Source: Pseudomonas hefeiensis (GTDB taxonomy: Bacteria; Pseudomonadota; Gammaproteobacteria; Pseudomonadales; Pseudomonadaceae). Taken from it: a stretch of DNA of 64,000 nucleotides. Below are positions 26,978 through 59,619 of the stretch, one piece after another (within the stretch, counting starts at the first letter, position 1; every line of letters begins with the position of its first letter). Location: NCBI RefSeq assembly GCF_030687835.1, contig NZ_CP117449.1, positions 4,960,001-5,024,000 of the forward strand, written 5' to 3'. The notes beneath the pieces are model-generated. The model was not told the DNA's origin. It made no database searches and was given only the letters and a program-made list of their open reading frames with translations. The position numbers and the translations under genes were made by a program.

Positions 26978-27496
26978 GTGAGTCAATCGCGCTTTCATCA
27001 CGTCTTCCTTGCCCAGCGTACGCCACTGCTGCGCACCCTCCAGCGCATGGTCAACAACCCCAGCACCGCCGAAGACCTGCTTCAGGAAACCTACCTGCGG
27101 GTCACTCGTGCCTTGGGCGAGCGCACGGTCGAGCATCTCGAACCCTTCGTTTTCCAGACTGCCCGTAACCTGGCGCTGGACCACTTGCGTGCGCGGCGTA
27201 TTCAGTCCCGGACCCTGCTGGACGACGTGCCGCAGGCAGTTGTCCACAACGTGGTCGCTCCCCAAAGCAGCGCCGAGGACGCGGCCCATGCCGAGCAGAT
27301 GCTCGAACGCCTCAATCTCAGCCTGCAAGCGCTAAGCCCGCGACAGCAGCAGATTTTTATCCTCAGTCGCCTGCATGGTCACAGTTACCAGGACATCGCC
27401 AAACAACTGGACGTGTCGCTGAGCACCGTGCAGAAGGAACTGAAGCTGATCATGGCGATCTGTGTGGGCGTGGCAGAACGCCTTGGTTGCGACTGA
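26978..27496 (+). CDS. ECF sigma factor of a heme cell-surface signalling system (FecI/HxuI-like)
   Basis: 172 residues with sigma region 2 (about 8-75; NNPSTAEDLLQETYLRVTRAL, then the region 2.4 motif FQTARNLALDHLRARR) and region 4 (about 110-160; LSPRQQQIFILSRLHGHSYQDIAKQLDVSLSTV). Starts with GTG. It should be released when the downstream receptor binds heme and then transcribe the receptor gene. The order sigma, FecR, receptor, heme oxygenase resembles hxuIR-hxuA of P. aeruginosa and the PP_1005-1008 cluster of P. putida. A strong Fur box covers its promoter. Confidence 0.88.
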   Translation: MSQSRFHHVFLAQRTPLLRTLQRMVNNPSTAEDLLQETYLRVTRALGERTVEHLEPFVFQTARNLALDHLRARRIQSRTLLDDVPQAVVHNVVAPQSSAEDAAHAEQMLERLNLSLQALSPRQQQIFILSRLHGHSYQDIAKQLDVSLSTVQKELKLIMAICVGVAERLGCD

Positions 27497-27608
27497 GCCT
27501 GTAAGGATTTTCTCTAAGAGGCCGTCGCCGATTGCGCTGGCCTGCGGCCCTGCTAGGCTTGGTCGCTGACGCTAAATAGCCGTGCAAAAGACACTGCGAG
27601 GAACCACC

Positions 27609-28571
27609 GTGACAGACAAACAACGTGCCCCTGAGCACGCTGCGGCGCAGGACACCGCCCATGCCATGGAACAGGCGCTGGACTGGCTGATTCTGCTGGA
27701 CCACCCCAGCGAGGAGCAGACCCGGCAGTTCGAGGCCTGGCTGGCGGCCGATCCGCGCCATGGTCAGGCATTCAAGCGGGCCCAGGCGATCTGGAACGGC
27801 CCGCAAGTGATGCAAAGCGCCCGGCAACTCAAAGCCCGTCCCCAAACCAGCGCACTGTCACGCTTGCGCGCCCATTGGAAACCCTTGGCCACCGCTGCAG
27901 TGCTGTTTCTGGGCCTGTTCAACTTCAGCGACCTGCCCCTGCGTCTGCAGGCCGATCACCTGACCGTGGTCGGTGAACGCCAGCGCCTGCAACTGGAGGA
28001 CGGCTCCAAGGTCCTGCTCAACACCGATTCGGCCTTCTCCAGCAGTTTCAACGAACAACAGCACATGGCCCGATTGTACAAAGGTGAGGCGTTTTTCGAA
28101 GTCCCGGACACTCGCCACCTGCCTCTGCAAATCGACGCCGGGCCGGTCATCGCCAGCGTCAGCAACACCACCTTCGCGGTGCGCTACCTTGATGGCGTGA
28201 CGCAGGTACAGGTGCAGCGCGGTGATGTGGATTTGCGGGCCACGCGCTATGACGCCCACGTCAGGTTGTCGGCCGGGGAAAGCATCCGCATCGGCCCCAA
28301 CGGCTTCGACCGCCCTGCCCGGATGGATGCCAGTACCGATCTGGCGTGGGTCCAGGGGCGACTGGTGTTCGAGAATCAACCGCTGAACCAGGTACTGGCC
28401 GAGCTACGACGCTACTACCCCGGCTGGATCATCAACAACAACGCACAGTTGGCCCAGGTCGCAGTGACTGGCAATTACCGCCTCGACCAGCCGCTGGACG
28501 TGGTCCGCTCTTTGGCCCACATCACCTCTGCCCGTCTCCAGGAATTCCCGGCGCTGGTGATCCTGAACTAA
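27609..28571 (+). CDS. FecR-type anti-sigma factor/transmembrane sensor (HxuR-like)
   Basis: 320 residues: N-terminal DUF4880 domain that binds the sigma factor (AMEQALDWLILLDHPSEEQTRQFEAWLAADPRHGQAF), one membrane helix (PLATAAVLFLGLFNFSDL, about 87-104), the periplasmic FecR domain (about 110-215) and a C-terminal DUF4974/STN-like part that contacts the receptor signalling domain. I chose the GTG at 27609 with GAGGA upstream rather than the GTG at 27582. It lies 112 bp after the sigma gene. Confidence 0.88.
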   Translation: MTDKQRAPEHAAAQDTAHAMEQALDWLILLDHPSEEQTRQFEAWLAADPRHGQAFKRAQAIWNGPQVMQSARQLKARPQTSALSRLRAHWKPLATAAVLFLGLFNFSDLPLRLQADHLTVVGERQRLQLEDGSKVLLNTDSAFSSSFNEQQHMARLYKGEAFFEVPDTRHLPLQIDAGPVIASVSNTTFAVRYLDGVTQVQVQRGDVDLRATRYDAHVRLSAGESIRIGPNGFDRPARMDASTDLAWVQGRLVFENQPLNQVLAELRRYYPGWIINNNAQLAQVAVTGNYRLDQPLDVVRSLAHITSARLQEFPALVILN

Positions 28572-28587
28572 ATGAGAATTATTTTTA
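28569..28587. promoter_or_regulatory. Fur-box-like site before the heme receptor
   Basis: TAAATGAGAATTATTTTTA resembles the TGAGAATnATT core of pseudomonad Fur boxes but has one weak half. It could give the receptor gene independent iron control besides the sigma factor. Confidence 0.4.
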
Positions 28588-28689
28588 CTCGATAGGCCTC
28601 GCTGGTTCGTCTCGTTATAGCCAATGCAATTGATTCGCATCTAGCGAGATCATCTGCACCTATAACAGATGCGACACGGAGCGCTATCG

Positions 28690-31284
28690 ATGTCCTCTCG
28701 TCTTACCCGCCGGTCCCTTGCCCCTGCCTGCACGCTGTCGTTGCTGACCGCCGCCATCCTGATGGCCGGCACCGCGCCGGCCGCCCTGGCCGCCACCGCC
28801 GTGCAGCCACCTGCGCGCAATATCGGTGATTACACCTTTGCCATTGCCCAGCAACCGCTGGTCTCGGCGCTGAATGCGTTCACCGCCGTCACAGGCTGGC
28901 AGGTCGGCTTGCCCGCAGAACTGGCCGAAGGCGTTGCGTCGCCGGGCGTCAACGGCTCGCTGCCAGCGGAAACAGCCCTGGAGCGCCTGTTGGTGGGGAC
29001 CAACCTGAGCTACCGCAAGCTGGGCAACACCAGCATTGTTCTGCAAAAACACAGCACCAGCAGCGTCCTGAACCTGCAACAGGTGACTATCAGCGCCACA
29101 CGCCAGGAACAGGAGATCGCCAGCGTTCCCAGCACTGTCTCCGTCCACGACCGGCGGGAACTGGACCGCAACAACGTCAACACCCTCAAGGATCTGGTGC
29201 GCTATGAACCCGGTGTTTCGGTGGGAGGTGCGGGCCAGCGCGGCGGCATCAGCGGCTACAACATTCGCGGAATCGACGGCAACCGGGTCCTGACGCAGGT
29301 CGACGGGGTGGAAATTCCCGATGGCTTCTTCAACGGCCCGTACGCCAAGACCCAGCGCAATTACGTGGACCCGGAAATCGTCAAGCGCGTGGAGATCCTC
29401 CGCGGCCCGGCCTCGGTGCTGTACGGCAGCAATGCCATCGGCGGTGCCGTCAGCTACTTCACCCTCGACCCGGACGACATCATCAAGCCTGGCAAGGACG
29501 TCGGCGCCCGCCTGAAGACCGGCTACAGCTCCGCCGACGAAAGCTGGCTCAAGTCCGCCACCGTCGCCGGCCGCAGCGGGCCGTTCGACGGCCTGTTGCA
29601 TTACAGCCAGCGCGACGGCCATGAAACCGAGTCCTACGGCAATAACAACGGCACCGGCCTGGACCGCACCGCGGCCAACCCGGAAGACGTGCGCACCCAC
29701 AATGTGCTGGCCAAGCTCGGCTGGAACTACAACGATGACTCGCGCCTGGGCCTGGTCTACGAGAAGTACAAGGATGACCGAGACACCGATCTGAAAAGCG
29801 CCTATGGCGGCCCCTACTCCAACGGCCAGCCGGCGATTCCTGACTTTGTGCTGCCCGGCGGCATGTATCAGTGGCGCACCGGTAACGACACCATCAGCCG
29901 CGAGCGCTTCGGCCTGGAGCATAGTTTCGCCCTCGACAGCCTGCTGGCCGACAACGTGAAGTGGAGCCTGAACCACCAGATCGCCAAGACCGACCAGAGC
30001 ACCGCCGAGTTTTACTTCCCCATCACCCGCCAGGTGCTACGTACCCGAGAGACCCTCTACGAAGAAAAACAGTGGGTTTTCGACGCCCAGTTGGACAAGG
30101 CCTTCAGCCTCGCCGACACCGATCACGCGCTGACCTACGGCACCACGATCAAGCAACAGAAAGTCACCGGTTCGCGCAGCGGCAACGGCGTCTGCCTGGC
30201 CGTCGGCGTGGGTTGCTCCGCCGTCGGTGCCACCAGCACCCGGGACGTACTGGAAAAAGCCAGTGACTTCCCGGACCCGACCATCAACACCTACAGCTTG
30301 TTCGCCCAGGACCAGATCAGTTGGAACCGGTGGACTTTCACGCCGGCCCTGCGTTACGACTACACGCGGCTCAAGCCGCACCTGACCGAGGCATTCCTCA
30401 ACACCGTGGACCCCACCAGCGGCGGTGAAGTCAGCGACACGAACAAGACCTGGCATCGCGTCTCGCCCAAATTCGGCCTGACCTACGCCCTGACCGACCA
30501 GTACACCTGGTACGGCCAGTACGCCGAAGGCTTCCGCACGCCAACCGCCAAGGCCCTGTATGGTCGTTTTGACAATCCCGGCGCCGGCTACAGCGTAGAA
30601 CCCAACCCCGATCTGGAACCGGAAAAAAGCAAAAGCTATGAGACTGGCCTGCGGGGCCGTTTCGATTCCGGTTCATTCGACGTGGCAGTGTTCTACAACA
30701 AGTACCGCGATTTCATCAACGAGGACGCCATCACCCCCGGCGCCGACCAGTTGACCTTCCAGAGCAACAACATCAAGCACGCCACCATCAAGGGGGCCGA
30801 GGTCAAGGGACGCCTGAACCTGGATCTGTTCGGCGCACCACAAGGCCTGTACACCCAAGGTTCGGTGGCCTATGCCTACGGTCGCAATAACGACACCGGC
30901 GAGCCGATCAACAGCGTCAACCCGCTGACCGGCGTGTTCGGCCTGGGTTACGAGCAGGACCGGTTCGGCACGTTGCTCAACTGGACCCTGGTCAGGAAAA
31001 AAGACCGTGTCGACGACAGCAACTTCAACTCGCCCGATGGCGTCAGCAGCCAGTTCAAGACCCCGGGCTTCGGCATCCTCGACCTGACCGGTTTCTACAA
31101 GGTGACCCACGACATCACCGTCAGCGGTGGTCTCTACAACCTCACCGACAAGAAGTACTGGCTGTGGGATGACGTGCGCGGCTACGACAGCGTTGGCGAA
31201 GCCGCGGTACTGAGCCCCGCCAACCTCGACCGGCTGACCCAGCCTGGGCGTAACTTCGCGGTCAATCTGATCTGGGATATCTGA
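28690..31284 (+). CDS. TonB-dependent heme/hemoglobin receptor with N-terminal signalling domain (HxuA/HasR-like)
   Basis: 864 residues: signal peptide ending AALAATA, an STN signalling domain (about 45-115; FAIAQQPLVSALNAFTAVTG), plug domain (ATRQEQEIASVPSTVSVHD through LRGPASVLYGSNAIGGAV) and a 22-strand barrel. The barrel has the heme-receptor pair FRTP and NPDLEPEKS at about 600-660, the FRAP/NPNL region of HasR/HemR proteins, and ends in an aromatic-rich strand (NFAVNLIWDI). It imports heme and signals to the FecR protein. ATG 28690 has GGAG nine bases upstream. Confidence 0.9.
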   Translation: MSSRLTRRSLAPACTLSLLTAAILMAGTAPAALAATAVQPPARNIGDYTFAIAQQPLVSALNAFTAVTGWQVGLPAELAEGVASPGVNGSLPAETALERLLVGTNLSYRKLGNTSIVLQKHSTSSVLNLQQVTISATRQEQEIASVPSTVSVHDRRELDRNNVNTLKDLVRYEPGVSVGGAGQRGGISGYNIRGIDGNRVLTQVDGVEIPDGFFNGPYAKTQRNYVDPEIVKRVEILRGPASVLYGSNAIGGAVSYFTLDPDDIIKPGKDVGARLKTGYSSADESWLKSATVAGRSGPFDGLLHYSQRDGHETESYGNNNGTGLDRTAANPEDVRTHNVLAKLGWNYNDDSRLGLVYEKYKDDRDTDLKSAYGGPYSNGQPAIPDFVLPGGMYQWRTGNDTISRERFGLEHSFALDSLLADNVKWSLNHQIAKTDQSTAEFYFPITRQVLRTRETLYEEKQWVFDAQLDKAFSLADTDHALTYGTTIKQQKVTGSRSGNGVCLAVGVGCSAVGATSTRDVLEKASDFPDPTINTYSLFAQDQISWNRWTFTPALRYDYTRLKPHLTEAFLNTVDPTSGGEVSDTNKTWHRVSPKFGLTYALTDQYTWYGQYAEGFRTPTAKALYGRFDNPGAGYSVEPNPDLEPEKSKSYETGLRGRFDSGSFDVAVFYNKYRDFINEDAITPGADQLTFQSNNIKHATIKGAEVKGRLNLDLFGAPQGLYTQGSVAYAYGRNNDTGEPINSVNPLTGVFGLGYEQDRFGTLLNWTLVRKKDRVDDSNFNSPDGVSSQFKTPGFGILDLTGFYKVTHDITVSGGLYNLTDKKYWLWDDVRGYDSVGEAAVLSPANLDRLTQPGRNFAVNLIWDI

Positions 31285-55048: not shown

Positions 55049-55750
55049 ATGCTGCAGTTCGAAAACGTTTCCACCTTCTATGGCAAGATCCAGGCCCTGC
55101 ACAGCGTCAACGTCGAAGTCCGCCAGGGCGAAATCGTGACACTGATCGGCGCCAACGGTGCCGGCAAATCCACGCTGCTGATGACGCTCTGCGGTTCGCC
55201 CCAGGCTCACAGCGGCAGCATCCGCTACATGGGTGAGGAACTGGTGGGCCAGGACTCTTCGCAGATCATGCGCAAGAGCATCGCCGTAGTGCCGGAAGGC
55301 CGTCGGGTATTTGCCCGGCTGACTGTGGAAGAAAACCTCGCCATGGGCGGTTTTTTCACCGACAAGGGCGACTTTCAGGAGCAAATGGACAAGGTGCTGC
55401 ACCTTTTCCCACGCCTGAAAGAACGCTTTAGCCAACGCGGCGGCACCATGTCCGGCGGCGAACAGCAAATGCTTGCCATCGGCCGTGCGCTGATGAGCAA
55501 GCCCAAGCTGCTGCTGCTCGACGAACCTTCCCTGGGCCTGGCGCCGATCATCATCCAGCAGATCTTCGACATCATCGAACAGTTGCGCAAGGATGGCGTG
55601 ACGGTGTTCCTGGTGGAGCAGAACGCCAACCAGGCGCTGAAAATCGCTGACCGGGCGTACGTGCTGGAGAACGGCCGCGTGGTGATGCAAGGCACCGGTG
55701 AAGCGCTGCTGACCGATCCGAAAGTACGCGAGGCGTATCTGGGCGGTTGA
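55049..55750 (+). CDS. braG: Branched-chain amino acid ABC ATPase BraG (LivF)
   Basis: 233 residues: Walker A IGANGAGKSTLL, signature MSGGEQQMLAIGRALM, Walker B LLLLDEPSLGLAP, switch VEQNAN, as in LivF proteins. Last gene of the operon, ended by a UUCG-loop terminator. Confidence 0.94.
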   Translation: MLQFENVSTFYGKIQALHSVNVEVRQGEIVTLIGANGAGKSTLLMTLCGSPQAHSGSIRYMGEELVGQDSSQIMRKSIAVVPEGRRVFARLTVEENLAMGGFFTDKGDFQEQMDKVLHLFPRLKERFSQRGGTMSGGEQQMLAIGRALMSKPKLLLLDEPSLGLAPIIIQQIFDIIEQLRKDGVTVFLVEQNANQALKIADRAYVLENGRVVMQGTGEALLTDPKVREAYLGG

Positions 55751-55793: not shown

Positions 55794-55879
55794 GTGGGAG
55801 CAAGGCTTGCCCGCGATGAAGATGATGCGGTCTCTCGGCAATCGCGGCGCCTGTTTCGCGAGCAAGCTTTGCTCCCACA
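55793..55879. repeat. REPIN
   Basis: TGTGGGAGCAAGGCTTGCCC against GCAAGCTTTGCTCCCACA, abutting the braG terminator. Confidence 0.88.
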
Positions 55880-56016
55880 AAAACAACCTCTATCGCCACA
55901 AATTTCAGGGCGACCAAAAAAAATCGAGAACCTGCTGTAACGCATTCCCCCACCCCCTCTCTAGTTCAGCAGACCGGCGCTGTCGCCGGTTCATTTCCTG
56001 AACCTGGAGAATCATC

Positions 56017-56322
56017 ATGACTGCTTCGACCCGCACCCTGTCCGCCGCTGCCCTGGCCCTGGCCCTTGGCTCCGCCTTGAGCATGACAGGCGTCTCGACT
56101 GTCCATGCCGCTGACGACACCATGGAAAAATGCTTCGGTGTCGCCCTCAAAGGCAAGAACGACTGCGCCGCCGGCGCTGGCACCACCTGTGCCGGCACCG
56201 CGAAAATGGACTATCAGGCCAACGCCTGGAAATCGGTCCCTAAAGGCACTTGCACCACCATGGAAAGCAAAACCTCCCCGACTGGTTTCGGCCAGCTCGA
56301 AGCGTTCAAAGCCAAGTCCTGA
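56017..56322 (+). CDS. BufA1/DUF2282 bufferin-type RiPP precursor
   Basis: 101 residues: Sec signal peptide ([20 protein letters not shown], probable cut after VHA), then a core with exactly four cysteines (Cys39, 50, 58, 79) in the pattern MEKCFG, NDCAAG, TTCAG and GTCTTM. This is the DUF2282 (BUF) family: secreted peptides whose Cys are modified in the cytoplasm by the neighbouring MNIO enzyme and which chelate copper in the periplasm of other proteobacteria (established for related bufferins). GGAGA precedes ATG 56017. First gene of a four-gene operon. Confidence 0.85.
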
Positions 56323-56347
56323 TCGCATCTGCCTGAGGCCAACCTCC

Positions 56348-57217
56348 ATGTCGAAAGCCCCCTCCCTCGCCACCGATACCCGGCTACCGCCAAGGGCTGG
56401 GTTGGGGCTCAAGACCGAGCATTTTCGTGAAGTGCTCCAGACCCGACCGGATCTGGGCTTCTTCGAAGTGCATGCGGAAAACTACATGGTGGCCGGCGGG
56501 CCGTTTCATCACTTCCTGGGGCGGATACGCGAACAGTATCCGCTGTCATTGCACGGCGTCGGTTTGTCGATCGGTGGGGAGGGACCGCTGGATGTTGCGC
56601 ACTTGCAACGCCTGGCCACACTGATCGAACGCTATCAGCCCCAGTCTTTTTCCGAACACCTGGCCTGGTCCAGCCATGGCCCGGTGTGTCTCAACGATCT
56701 GCTGCCCCTGGCCTACGATGAAACGACGCTCAAGCGCGTCTGCGAGCACGTCGATCAGGTCCAGTCCAGCCTCAAATGCACGCTGCTGCTGGAAAACCCA
56801 GCCACTTATCTGGCGTTCGAGGATTCAACCCTCGACGAGCCTGACTTCATCAGTGAGGTCATCCGTCGCACCGGCTGCGGACTGCTGCTGGATGTGAACA
56901 ACGTCTACGTTTCATGCATCAACCATTGTCGTGATCCCTTGGCTTACCTCGACGCACTGCCTCTGCAGGCCACCGGGGAAATTCATCTGGCCGGATTCGC
57001 CGAAGACACCGACAGCCTGGGCGAGCGTTTACTGATCGATGACCACGGTGCGCCAATCGATAATGAGGTCTGGCGCTTGTATCGCACGGTATTGGCACGG
57101 ACCGGGCCGGTCGCCACGCTGATCGAGCGTGACAACCGCATCCCGGCGTTGGAAGTGCTGCTGGCCGAAGCCGGTCAGGCCGACCAACTGTTAAACGCCG
57201 CTGGGGTCCGGCCATGA
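56348..57217 (+). CDS. MNIO-family (DUF692) multinuclear iron enzyme, BufB-like
   Basis: 289 residues of a TIM-barrel. Candidate iron ligands are His69 (SLHG), Glu103/His104 (FSEHLAWS), Glu149/Asn150 (LLLENPATY), Asp182 (LDVNNVYV), His213 (EIHLAGF), Asp231 or His233 (LIDDHG) and Glu260 (TLIERDN), the set of the MNIO group. MNIO enzymes oxidise Cys or Asp in peptides, such as thiooxazole formation in bufferins. GAGG lies nine bases before ATG 56348, 25 bp after the precursor gene. Its stop overlaps the next gene by four bases. Confidence 0.85.
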
Positions 57218-57984
57218 GCCGCTACAGCGAATTCGCCGCCGCCCTGCTCGACCCGCGCAGGGCGTGTCCGCAGGGTTTGACCTGCGCCACTGGCGCCGAT
57301 CCAGAGAGCCGGTTCGCGGTGTATCGCAACAACGTGCTCAGCTCATTGATCAAGGCCCTGGCCGACAACTATCCGGTGGTGGCGCAACTGGTGGGTGAGG
57401 AGTTTTTCGGCGCCATGGCCGGAACCTACGTCCAGTCGGCCGCACCGCAAAGCCCGGTGATGAGTGACTACGGGGCCGACTTTGCCGGCTTCATCGAACA
57501 TTTCGAACCCGCCGCCAGCGTACCTTACCTGGCGGATGTCGCCCGACTGGAGCGACTGCAGGTGCAGGCCTGGCACGCCGCCGACGCCCGGCCCATGGAC
57601 GCACAACAGATCATGCAAGGGCTGTCATCGCCCGCCGCCCATGATCATCTGAGGGTCGGTCTTCACCCGTCACTGCACCTGTTGCAGTCGTCCTTCGCCG
57701 TGGTGGCGATCTGGGCGGCCCATCAACAAGAGCCCGTCGTGCCGTTCGACCCCTTCTCACCGCAATGCGCCCTGGTGCTGCGCAACCACCTGGACGTGGA
57801 AGTGTTTGCGATCAGTCCCGGTGCCCACGATTTCATCAAAGACCTGCAGCAAGGCTTGTCCCTGGCCGCCGCCATTGATGCCTCAACCGGGCGCGACACC
57901 GATCTGGAACTGGAACACACCCTGGCGCAGCTCATCAGCCACCAAGCCATCACTCATCTGTTAGCCGAGCAGGTATTACCATGA
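57214..57984 (+). CDS. BufC-like (DUF2063) partner protein
   Basis: 256 residues. The N-terminal DUF2063 domain (about 1-95; [32 protein letters not shown]) was first annotated as putative DNA-binding but in MNIO operons the protein acts as a partner of the DUF692 enzyme, probably presenting the precursor peptide. The C-terminal part shows no motif I know. Translationally coupled to the enzyme gene (ATGA overlap) and to the DoxX gene downstream. Confidence 0.8.
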
Positions 57985-58457
57985 ACTCCATGATTACTCG
58001 CGCCATTCAATGGCTGGATAAAATCCCTCACAGCCTGATCGCCTTCGTGGGACGATTTTCCATCGCTGCGGTGTTCTGGAAATCCGGCCAGACCAAAATC
58101 GAGGGATTGGCTATCGATCTGGTCGACGGCACTTTTCAGCTCGGCCTACCACGGCTGGCGGACTCAACCATTCCCCTGTTCAAAAGCGAATACGCCTTGC
58201 CGCTGCTGTCGCCAGCGCTGGCGGCACATCTGGCAGCCGTGGCCGAGCATGTGTTCCCGGTCCTGATCCTGTTTGGCCTGGCGACACGTTTCTCGGCCCT
58301 GGCCCTGCTGGGCATGACCATAACCATTCAACTGTTCGTCTACCCCGCTGCCTATCCGACCCATGGCACCTGGGCGGCGGTATTGCTTTATCTGATGGCG
58401 CGCGGGCCGGGCAAACTGTCAATCGACCACCTGATTGCCAGGCGCTACGCCCATTGA
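57981..58457 (+). CDS. DoxX-family membrane protein of the bufferin-type operon
   Basis: 158 residues with about four membrane helices (IAFVGRFSIAAVFWKSGQTKIE, VFPVLILFGLATRFSALALLGMTITIQLF), DoxX pattern including the Lys-Ser-Gly of WKSG. DoxX proteins travel with DUF692 and DUF2282 genes in metal-induced (gig-type) operons; role unknown, perhaps redox. ATGA overlap with the preceding gene. A REPIN follows. Confidence 0.82.
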   Translation: MNSMITRAIQWLDKIPHSLIAFVGRFSIAAVFWKSGQTKIEGLAIDLVDGTFQLGLPRLADSTIPLFKSEYALPLLSPALAAHLAAVAEHVFPVLILFGLATRFSALALLGMTITIQLFVYPAAYPTHGTWAAVLLYLMARGPGKLSIDHLIARRYAH

Positions 58458-58473
58458 TTACGACCAGGACTCC

Positions 58474-58563
58474 TGTGGGAGCGGGCTTGCTCGCGAAGGC
58501 GGTGGGTCAGCTTGCATAAATACTGGATGTACTACTGCCTTCGCGAGCAAGCCCGCTCCCACA
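58474..58563. repeat. REPIN
   Basis: TGTGGGAGCGGGCTTGCTCG and its complement, between the convergent DoxX and LysR genes. Confidence 0.9.
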
Positions 58564-58600: not shown

Positions 58601-59515
58601 CTATCGCTGAAGCCGATCCAGCGCCTCGCCACTGCGCTTGAACCAGTCGATCAAATAGTCCGCCAGCACCTGGGTGCGCTTGGGCAAACCACCCTGGTAC
58701 GGGTGCACGAGGTACATCGGCATGCGCCGGGTCTGAAAATCCCTTAGCAACCAGCGCAATCGTCCGTCAGCCAATTCTTCATGCAACAGATAGGACGGTA
58801 AACGGGCGACCCCAGCGCCGGCCAGGGCGGCTTTTTTCAGCAAGCTGTAGTGGTTGCTGGCGAACGGCCCCGATACCCGTACCCGCAACAATTCGTGTTG
58901 CTGGTGATAGAGCCATTCCTCCCGACCGCTGTAATGACTGTTGAGCAGGCAACGGTGTTCCGCCAGACCCTGGGGGGTGAGGGGTTCACCGTAGTGTTCG
59001 AGGTAAGCCGGGCTGGCGCAGGTCAGCGCATGCCAGGCGAGCAACGGACGCGCCACCAGGCGCTCATCGAGGGCGGCGTCGGAACGGATCGCCAGGTCGA
59101 AGCCATCGCGGGTCAGATCCCGGTAGCCGTTGTTGAGCTCCAGTTCGATCTGCACGTCGGGGTAGCGCTGGGCGAACTCCGTCAGCAACCCCTCAAAGAA
59201 AGTTTCGCCCAACGACACCGGAACCGTCATACGCACCGGCCCGGAAATTTCATCCTTCAGGCGAGCCAGCGCCTGACGCGCCCTTTGCACCTGCACCAAC
59301 AATGCCTGGGCCTGGGGCAATAACGCAGCCCCCGCTGCCGTGAGACTCAAGCGCCGCGTGGTGCGCTGTAGCAACACCACTGAAAACCGACTCTCCAGCA
59401 GGCTGATGCGCTTGGACAACTGGCCCTTGCTGCAGCCCAATTGCTGGGCCGCCAGGGTGAAACTACCCGCCTCTATCAACACGGCGAACGCTGCCAGATC
59501 GTCCATTTCGCTCAT
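58601..59515 (-). CDS. LysR-family transcriptional regulator
   Basis: 304 residues: N-terminal winged helix (about 1-62; AFAVLIEAGSFTLAAQQLGCSKGQLSKRISLLE) and a periplasmic-binding-like effector domain. The CrgA/PP2-like group is suggested by the LysR effector start GPVRMTVPVSLGETFFEGLL. Effector unknown. I start at ATG 59515 (MSEMDDLAAF). It is divergent from the SDR gene, which it may control. Confidence 0.88.
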   Translation of the reverse strand: MSEMDDLAAFAVLIEAGSFTLAAQQLGCSKGQLSKRISLLESRFSVVLLQRTTRRLSLTAAGAALLPQAQALLVQVQRARQALARLKDEISGPVRMTVPVSLGETFFEGLLTEFAQRYPDVQIELELNNGYRDLTRDGFDLAIRSDAALDERLVARPLLAWHALTCASPAYLEHYGEPLTPQGLAEHRCLLNSHYSGREEWLYHQQHELLRVRVSGPFASNHYSLLKKAALAGAGVARLPSYLLHEELADGRLRWLLRDFQTRRMPMYLVHPYQGGLPKRTQVLADYLIDWFKRSGEALDRLQR

Positions 59516-59619
59516 CGGATTGTTTCCAATTGAAAACCAAAGGTTGCCTATTACCACGATTATCAACAGAAAAAACCTCTCTAGACTGCAATCTCATCCA
59601 GCCCATTGAGGAACAGCTA

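Follow-up and report, generated by a model that had tools for sequence, protein, structure and literature searches.

Bufferins form a large class of RiPPs that was recognised recently. In Caulobacter, the SigF-NrsF sigma/anti-sigma pair drives the Buf1 cluster, a second DUF692 (MNIO) cluster and MsrPQ; copper induces the response, and mutation of sigF renders the cells sensitive to the metal (PMC8224329). We read the second SigF-driven MNIO cluster as a Buf2 cluster. In Cupriavidus metallidurans, rpoQ and an anti-sigma gene lie near the gig operon and have been tied to copper/thiol homeostasis (PMC13192273). In the clusters described in the family survey, sigma/anti-sigma genes were found within Buf1 clusters and not within Buf2 clusters (PMC12452194), and a homologous operon was recorded in P. 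fluorescens in 2017 (PMC5413113). An operon unlinked to any sigma gene would be left without a regulator by a survey of gene neighbourhoods.

The window, that is, the whole 64,000-nucleotide stretch of Pseudomonas hefeiensis DNA that was analysed, contains a Buf1 bufferin operon (bufA1, bufB, bufC and bufD) at positions 56017-58457, identified with curated models and the predicted fold of BufC (Table 1). Its gene families (DUF2282 precursor, MNIO enzyme, DUF2063-type partner and DoxX protein), the four cysteines and the signal peptide are shared with the Buf1 operon of Caulobacter vibrioides and with the gig operons known from Cupriavidus and Legionella. BufA1 (101 amino acids, with cysteines at positions 39, 50, 58 and 79) matched PF10048 (DUF2282) with 87.5 bits (Pfam cut-off 22.4; E-value 5.8e-25), and no NCBIfam family matched the precursor. 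Its Sec signal, judged by eye, consists of a hydrophobic run followed by VHA ahead of ADD. The bufB gene starts 25 bases past the bufA1 stop codon, and the bufB/bufC and bufC/bufD overlaps are of four bases each. BufB scored above the cut-offs of both PF05114 (347.8 bits, Pfam cut-off 25) and the NCBIfam model NF050167, MNIO_BufB (379.8 bits, cut-off 310), and its ligand-type residues in the MNIO core (H69, H104, E149, D182, N184, H193, H213, D231, H233 and E260) were invariant in nine sequences; we take the metal-binding members among them from MbnB/TglH. BufC matched PF09836 (88.2 bits, Pfam cut-off 27.2), and a sequence-profile search of the PDB with BufC yielded no match. The AlphaFold2 model of this protein (pLDDT 92.4) had three matches in the PDB with E-values below 0.001, to the TglHI entries 8hi7 and 8hci and to 3dee (NGO1945), with values of 1.7e-7 to 1.7e-5. 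This fold agrees with the DUF2063-RRE partner protein described in the bufferin survey (PMC12452194). The Pfam wording for the family, a DNA-binding regulator, was ruled out for BufC, the predicted fold agreeing with MNIO partner proteins. BufC also diverges much faster than its neighbours, many relatives being ~50-60% identical, versus ~80% for bufB and ~98% for livF. BufD matched PF07681 (53.4 bits, Pfam cut-off 23.6) and remained below the NCBIfam cut-off for HvfX (43.5 of 80 bits). The initial annotation had proposed a bufferin-type operon with an MNIO enzyme, a partner and a DoxX protein, a precursor with a signal peptide and four cysteines, and four-base overlaps at the DUF2063 and DoxX genes; the positions of the four same-strand genes, Pfam families, curated models and the predicted BufC fold bear this out, with the signal peptide judged by eye. 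By analogy with its relatives, the operon very probably makes a copper-binding peptide of a known kind. Its content is already known and ordinary; the variant part is its regulation.

Table 1. Features of the bufferin locus, its neighbours and the candidate sigma gene (window positions, except for the sigma gene, which is given on contig C1 of the genome containing the window, G000)
Feature	Position	Strand	Basis or remark
livF-like ABC ATPase, conserved upstream neighbour	55049..55750	+	synteny marker, outside the system
ECF-type promoter box TGTAAC-N16-TCTCTAG	55936..55964	+	footprinting; -35 = 55936-55941, -10 = 55958-55964
Likely 5' leader stem-loop, ACCGGCG/CGCCGGT in the window copy	55973..55990	+	
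bufA1: Buf1 bufferin precursor, signal peptide and DUF2282, four Cys	56017..56322	+	PF10048
bufB: MNIO bufferin maturase	56348..57217	+	NF050167 MNIO_BufB, PF05114
bufC: DUF2063 and RRE-type partner protein	57214..57984	+	PF09836, predicted fold
bufD: DoxX-family membrane protein	57981..58457	+	PF07681
LysR-family regulator, conserved convergent downstream neighbour	58601..59566	-	probably outside the system
Candidate ECF sigma	G000:C1:4769191-4769799	minus	PF04542 and PF08281 above cut-off (sigma-70 regions 2 and 4)

The genome containing the window (6.45 Mb, one contig, completeness 99.98%) has bufA1 as its sole DUF2282 match and two MNIO matches. The second MNIO gene, at ~3.66 Mb (L225/L003), adjoins an EGKCG/EF-hand precursor, and no [TGC]GTAA was found within 260 bases upstream of that operon. 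Across the genus, DUF2282 was present in 235 of 398 genomes and NrsF (PF06532) was matched in 61 of 396. The bufA loci fetched fell into two main types, with a few fitting neither. In the loci of type A, a divergent ECF16-like sigma gene and NrsF lie next to bufA; those of type B, including the window copy, usually lie between livF and lysR and have neither an ECF16-like sigma nor NrsF. The operon lies between REP-like inverted repeats (GTGGGAGC...GCTCCCAC) at 55794-55878 and 58474-58563, the downstream one giving the only Rfam match, far under the family threshold. Elsewhere in the window, positions 26978-31284 carry, as judged by eye, a FecI-like sigma gene, a FecR-like gene and a TonB-dependent receptor, unrelated to the operon.

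The initial annotation had reported neither a visible metal-responsive promoter box nor a sigma/anti-sigma pair beside the operon, and had left its induction open. The latter point stands: no such pair is adjacent to the operon, and NrsF had no match in the whole genome, the Caulobacter positive control being detected. The statement on the promoter has to be revised, because an ECF-type box precedes bufA1 and the genome offers a candidate sigma at another place. The box starts 81 bases ahead of the bufA1 start codon and was conserved in 69 of the 75 non-duplicate loci with livF no more than 3 kb upstream (59 of 63 with a tighter distance limit). It was missing from L059, L102, L184 and L185 and from both Marinobacterium loci (L219 and L220). 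Markov-shuffled upstream sequences, used as a control, gave two matches in 12600. The box has the spacing of -35 and -10 elements, with a -35 hexamer equal to that of the promoters linked to ECF16/NrsF. None of the 14 NrsF-bearing loci had the box itself, and L086-L095 carried TGTAACC-N16-CGAA[CT]TA in place of TGTAAC-N16-TCTCTAG. The only perfect match in the genome containing the window was the one upstream of bufA1; four further sites had one mismatch, and none of them adjoins a sigma gene of the region-4 list. Three bufA1 upstream regions from outside Pseudomonas (L194, L199 and L219) carry an ECF-like TGTAAG...CGACTA, and the stretches retrieved for these loci gave no match to three sigma/anti-sigma queries.

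A stem-loop likely follows the box in the 5' leader. It was examined in an alignment (A1) of 64 of the 79 distinct leaders, nine similar ones not being entered and six (L057, L099, L148, L152, L166 and L181) being excluded because the leader was of a different kind or its start was wrong; the invariance of the promoter columns in A1 is due in part to selection, because the leaders were picked by the box pattern. Over the 64 leaders, 86.4% of the cells in the stem were paired, with one of the seven pairs failing in 30 rows, and 47 cells were altered on both sides, versus 17.4 in shuffles. The covariation score was 0.341, compared with a shuffled mean of 0.186 and values of no more than 0.162 for slid-partner controls. 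Two of the five measures were not clear of the shuffles, of which 344/500 and 55/500 reached the observed values. The leader had no match in Rfam. RNAalifold predicted an unrelated four-pair helix rather than the stem, and we therefore grade the hairpin as likely, on the basis of counts for the named structure and single folds. The bufA2 leaders described below folded weakly (z-scores of 0.1 to -3.5).

A scan of the genus for TGTAAC-N16-YCTCTAG gave matches in 149 of 396 genomes, with a second recurring site besides that of bufA1. All 20 such sites fetched, chosen by eye among the matches listed, preceded a short six-cysteine precursor resembling BufA2. The one precursor scanned scored 93.8 bits against NCBIfam BufA2 (cut-off 60). 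An MNIO frame followed the precursor in 18 of the 20 stretches, the exceptions being L269, in which it lay further on, and L276. Because the same box precedes both, the BufA1 and BufA2 precursor families, encoded at unlinked places, appear to share one promoter.

The candidate for reading this promoter is an ECF sigma gene 246 kb from the operon. It overlaps by seven bases a gene for a candidate anti-sigma of 78 residues, with a zf-HC2 zinc finger (HX3CX2C) and, by eye, no evident membrane segment; a porin-like gene follows the pair. The anti-sigma scored above the cut-offs of PF13490 and NF052368 and matched TIGR03988 (antisig_RsrA) weakly (23.8 bits, cut-off 62.5). The HX3CX2C motif was present in all 48 anti-sigmas extracted from 61 loci (13 were not extracted, four HvfA-like loci among these). 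The ECF sigma itself was absent from the matches of the ECF16 query in the genome containing the window. The link to bufferins comes from relatives, in which the pair adjoins Buf1 operons at two loci, a Buf2 operon at one and HvfA-like operons at six. The order in L061 (G135, with one match to the candidate ECF listed) is bufABCD, ECF (82% identical), anti-sigma, box (17-base spacer), bufA2 and MNIO. In L192 (Pseudomonas sp. C2B4), the ECF gene (77% identical) and the anti-sigma gene come after bufABCD, and the bufA1 promoter reads CGTAAC-N16-TCTCTAC. The six HvfA-like loci (L325, L328, L331, L334, L335 and L339), all in DUF2282-negative genomes, have the order ECF, anti-sigma, box, precursor and MNIO, with CGTCTAG as the -10 element in four and [CT]GTCCAT in two. 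The two HvfA-like precursors scanned scored above the cut-off of the HvfA KCG domain and below that of the HvfA equivalog. These loci come from a search of 40 of the 45 DUF2282-negative genomes with the ECF, from which 30 loci were obtained. Within the flanks retrieved, 8 of the 61 ECF loci adjoined a metallophore operon, two of them linking the ECF to Buf1. In P. aeruginosa, an MNIO gene, PA3283, presumably lies near an ECF gene, PA3285.

Several other sigma genes were considered and rejected. For SigX, no [TG]GTAAC was found on the minus strand, which is that of the genes, in the 10-kb sigX-oprF stretch. The ECF gene within the window (26978-27496) has a single TGTAAC, 430 bases upstream, not followed by the -10 element. 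At the remaining sigma genes examined, TGTAAC and CTCTA never occurred together, L118 having CTCTA alone. An algU-like sigma gene (G000:C1:4823338-4823941; L224:3339-3942, minus strand) is split over several frames in the assembly, which a genuine frameshift and an error of sequencing would explain alike.

The distribution of the candidate ECF was compared with those of DUF2282, NrsF and the box over 396 genomes of the genus (G000-G395), with kinship confounding the counts; the underlying lists name 235 genomes for DUF2282, 61 for NrsF, 149 for the box and 227 for the ECF. The ECF was found in 174 of the 177 genomes with DUF2282 but without full NrsF; where DUF2282 and full NrsF occur together it was found in 8 of 56 genomes, and where DUF2282 is missing in 45 of 163. 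Weak or partial NrsF rows (G051, G079, G085, G169 and G390) were tallied as no full NrsF. Thus tallied, the candidate ECF and NrsF nearly exclude each other across the genus. Fisher values for this co-occurrence are not to be taken as probabilities, because related genomes are not independent. The strict box was missing from 30 of the 174 genomes with the ECF and DUF2282 but no full NrsF. Three genomes with DUF2282 had neither full NrsF nor the candidate ECF: G035, a draft of about 530 contigs, G085, which has a partial NrsF, and G395.

We consider it quite unlikely that a different sigma factor or an activator protein reads the box, with the ECF/zinc-finger pair being a mere neighbour of these operons in some lineages. 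Such an arrangement would be consistent with the absence of a box upstream of the candidate ECF gene in the genome containing the window, with the 37 matches to sigma region 4 in that genome, many of which are other ECF genes, with the tracking of clades by the distributions and with the 53 of 61 ECF loci that adjoin no metallophore operon within the flanks retrieved. It accords poorly with the position of the box, which lies directly after the pair, between it and the operon, in 7 of the 7 loci in which a metallophore operon follows, and a box-like site precedes the ECF gene itself in 4 of the 61 loci (L312, L316, L317 and L318). None of 13 other sigma genes examined had TGTAAC and CTCTA together upstream, a further three (L114, L115 and L121) had no TGTAAC in 400 bases, and the box has the spacing and -35 hexamer noted above. 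Control by SigF-NrsF encoded elsewhere in the genome, as documented for Caulobacter (PMC8224329), would suit the 56 DUF2282 genomes of the genus with full NrsF. It is highly improbable for the window copy: SigF-NrsF is not the switch here, because this almost complete genome has no NrsF match. Its best match to an NrsF-linked ECF is 28% identical, and the -10 elements, CGAA[CT]TA in L086-L095 and TCTCTAG at the bufA1 gene of the window, are unlike each other.

The metal is a separate matter. Gold as well as copper triggers a gig promoter in the experiments reported (PMC5413113), the survey discusses DoxX as a guard against other stresses (PMC12452194), and the zinc finger of the anti-sigma is of a thiol-sensing type, from which sensing would be expected. 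The operon might, on these grounds, serve another metal or oxidative/thiol stress, with copper secondary, which we regard as unlikely. Caulobacter Buf1 is reported to chelate copper (PMC12452194), and of the four bufA2 loci that were read through completely, two (L261 and L270) have, ahead of the box, a gene that by eye resembles one for a metal P-type ATPase.

We therefore return to the candidate ECF and its zf-HC2 anti-sigma, by which, judging from sequence comparisons, the Buf1 operon of the window is in our estimation very likely to be run from the box upstream of bufA1, as part of a shared metallophore switch. The window copy would be a distant target of this switch rather than an operon without regulation, because relatives appear to use this pair and box for Buf1, Buf2 and HvfA-like operons alike. 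Transcription of bufA1 most likely begins at the ECF-type promoter, with the ECF factor encoded on the minus strand at 4769191-4769799 as the most likely sigma. The anti-sigma would restrain this sigma through its zinc finger and release it when copper, thiol stress or a soft metal other than copper acts on the finger; the freed sigma would then transcribe bufA1 from the box. As suggested by the family, BufB and BufC should oxidise the two central cysteines of BufA1 to thiooxazoles ahead of Sec export, and the exported peptide would buffer excess periplasmic copper. More broadly, it seems probable that a single dedicated ECF sigma, held by its small zinc-finger anti-sigma, replaces SigF-NrsF as master switch of the BufA1, BufA2 and HvfA-like families of MNIO copper metallophores in much of Pseudomonas, lying near the operons or, as for the window copy, far from them. 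If so, the same peptide response would be set off by a cytoplasmic rather than an envelope signal. The box and the pair provide a named candidate switch for Pseudomonas operons unlinked to a sigma gene, place Buf1, Buf2 and HvfA-like operons in a single predicted regulon and bring the inducing signal within reach of a test.

Compared with Caulobacter Buf1 and the gig operons, the operon of the window lacks an adjacent sigma gene, resides in a genome without NrsF and is placed between livF and lysR. Most precursors syntenic with that of the window carry the 16-residue C-terminal tail of BufA1 (56272-56319; not in L099 and L102), which is unseen in the NrsF-linked precursors listed. In the SigF-NrsF regulon, one ECF sigma governs Buf1 and a second MNIO cluster, as proposed here; the candidate ECF protein is a different one, its anti-sigma is a small zf-HC2 protein rather than NrsF, and HvfA-like operons would be included. 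The RpoQ system, likened here by description, likewise has an ECF gene and its anti-sigma gene close to a bufferin operon. With the RsrA-type zinc anti-sigmas, the candidate anti-sigma has the HX3CX2C zinc finger in common, with metal or thiol sensing presumed, but it falls outside the TIGR03988 equivalog. The control logic is thus known from Caulobacter and Cupriavidus; the differences here lie in which pair would regulate, in the promoter and in the predicted reach to HvfA-like operons.
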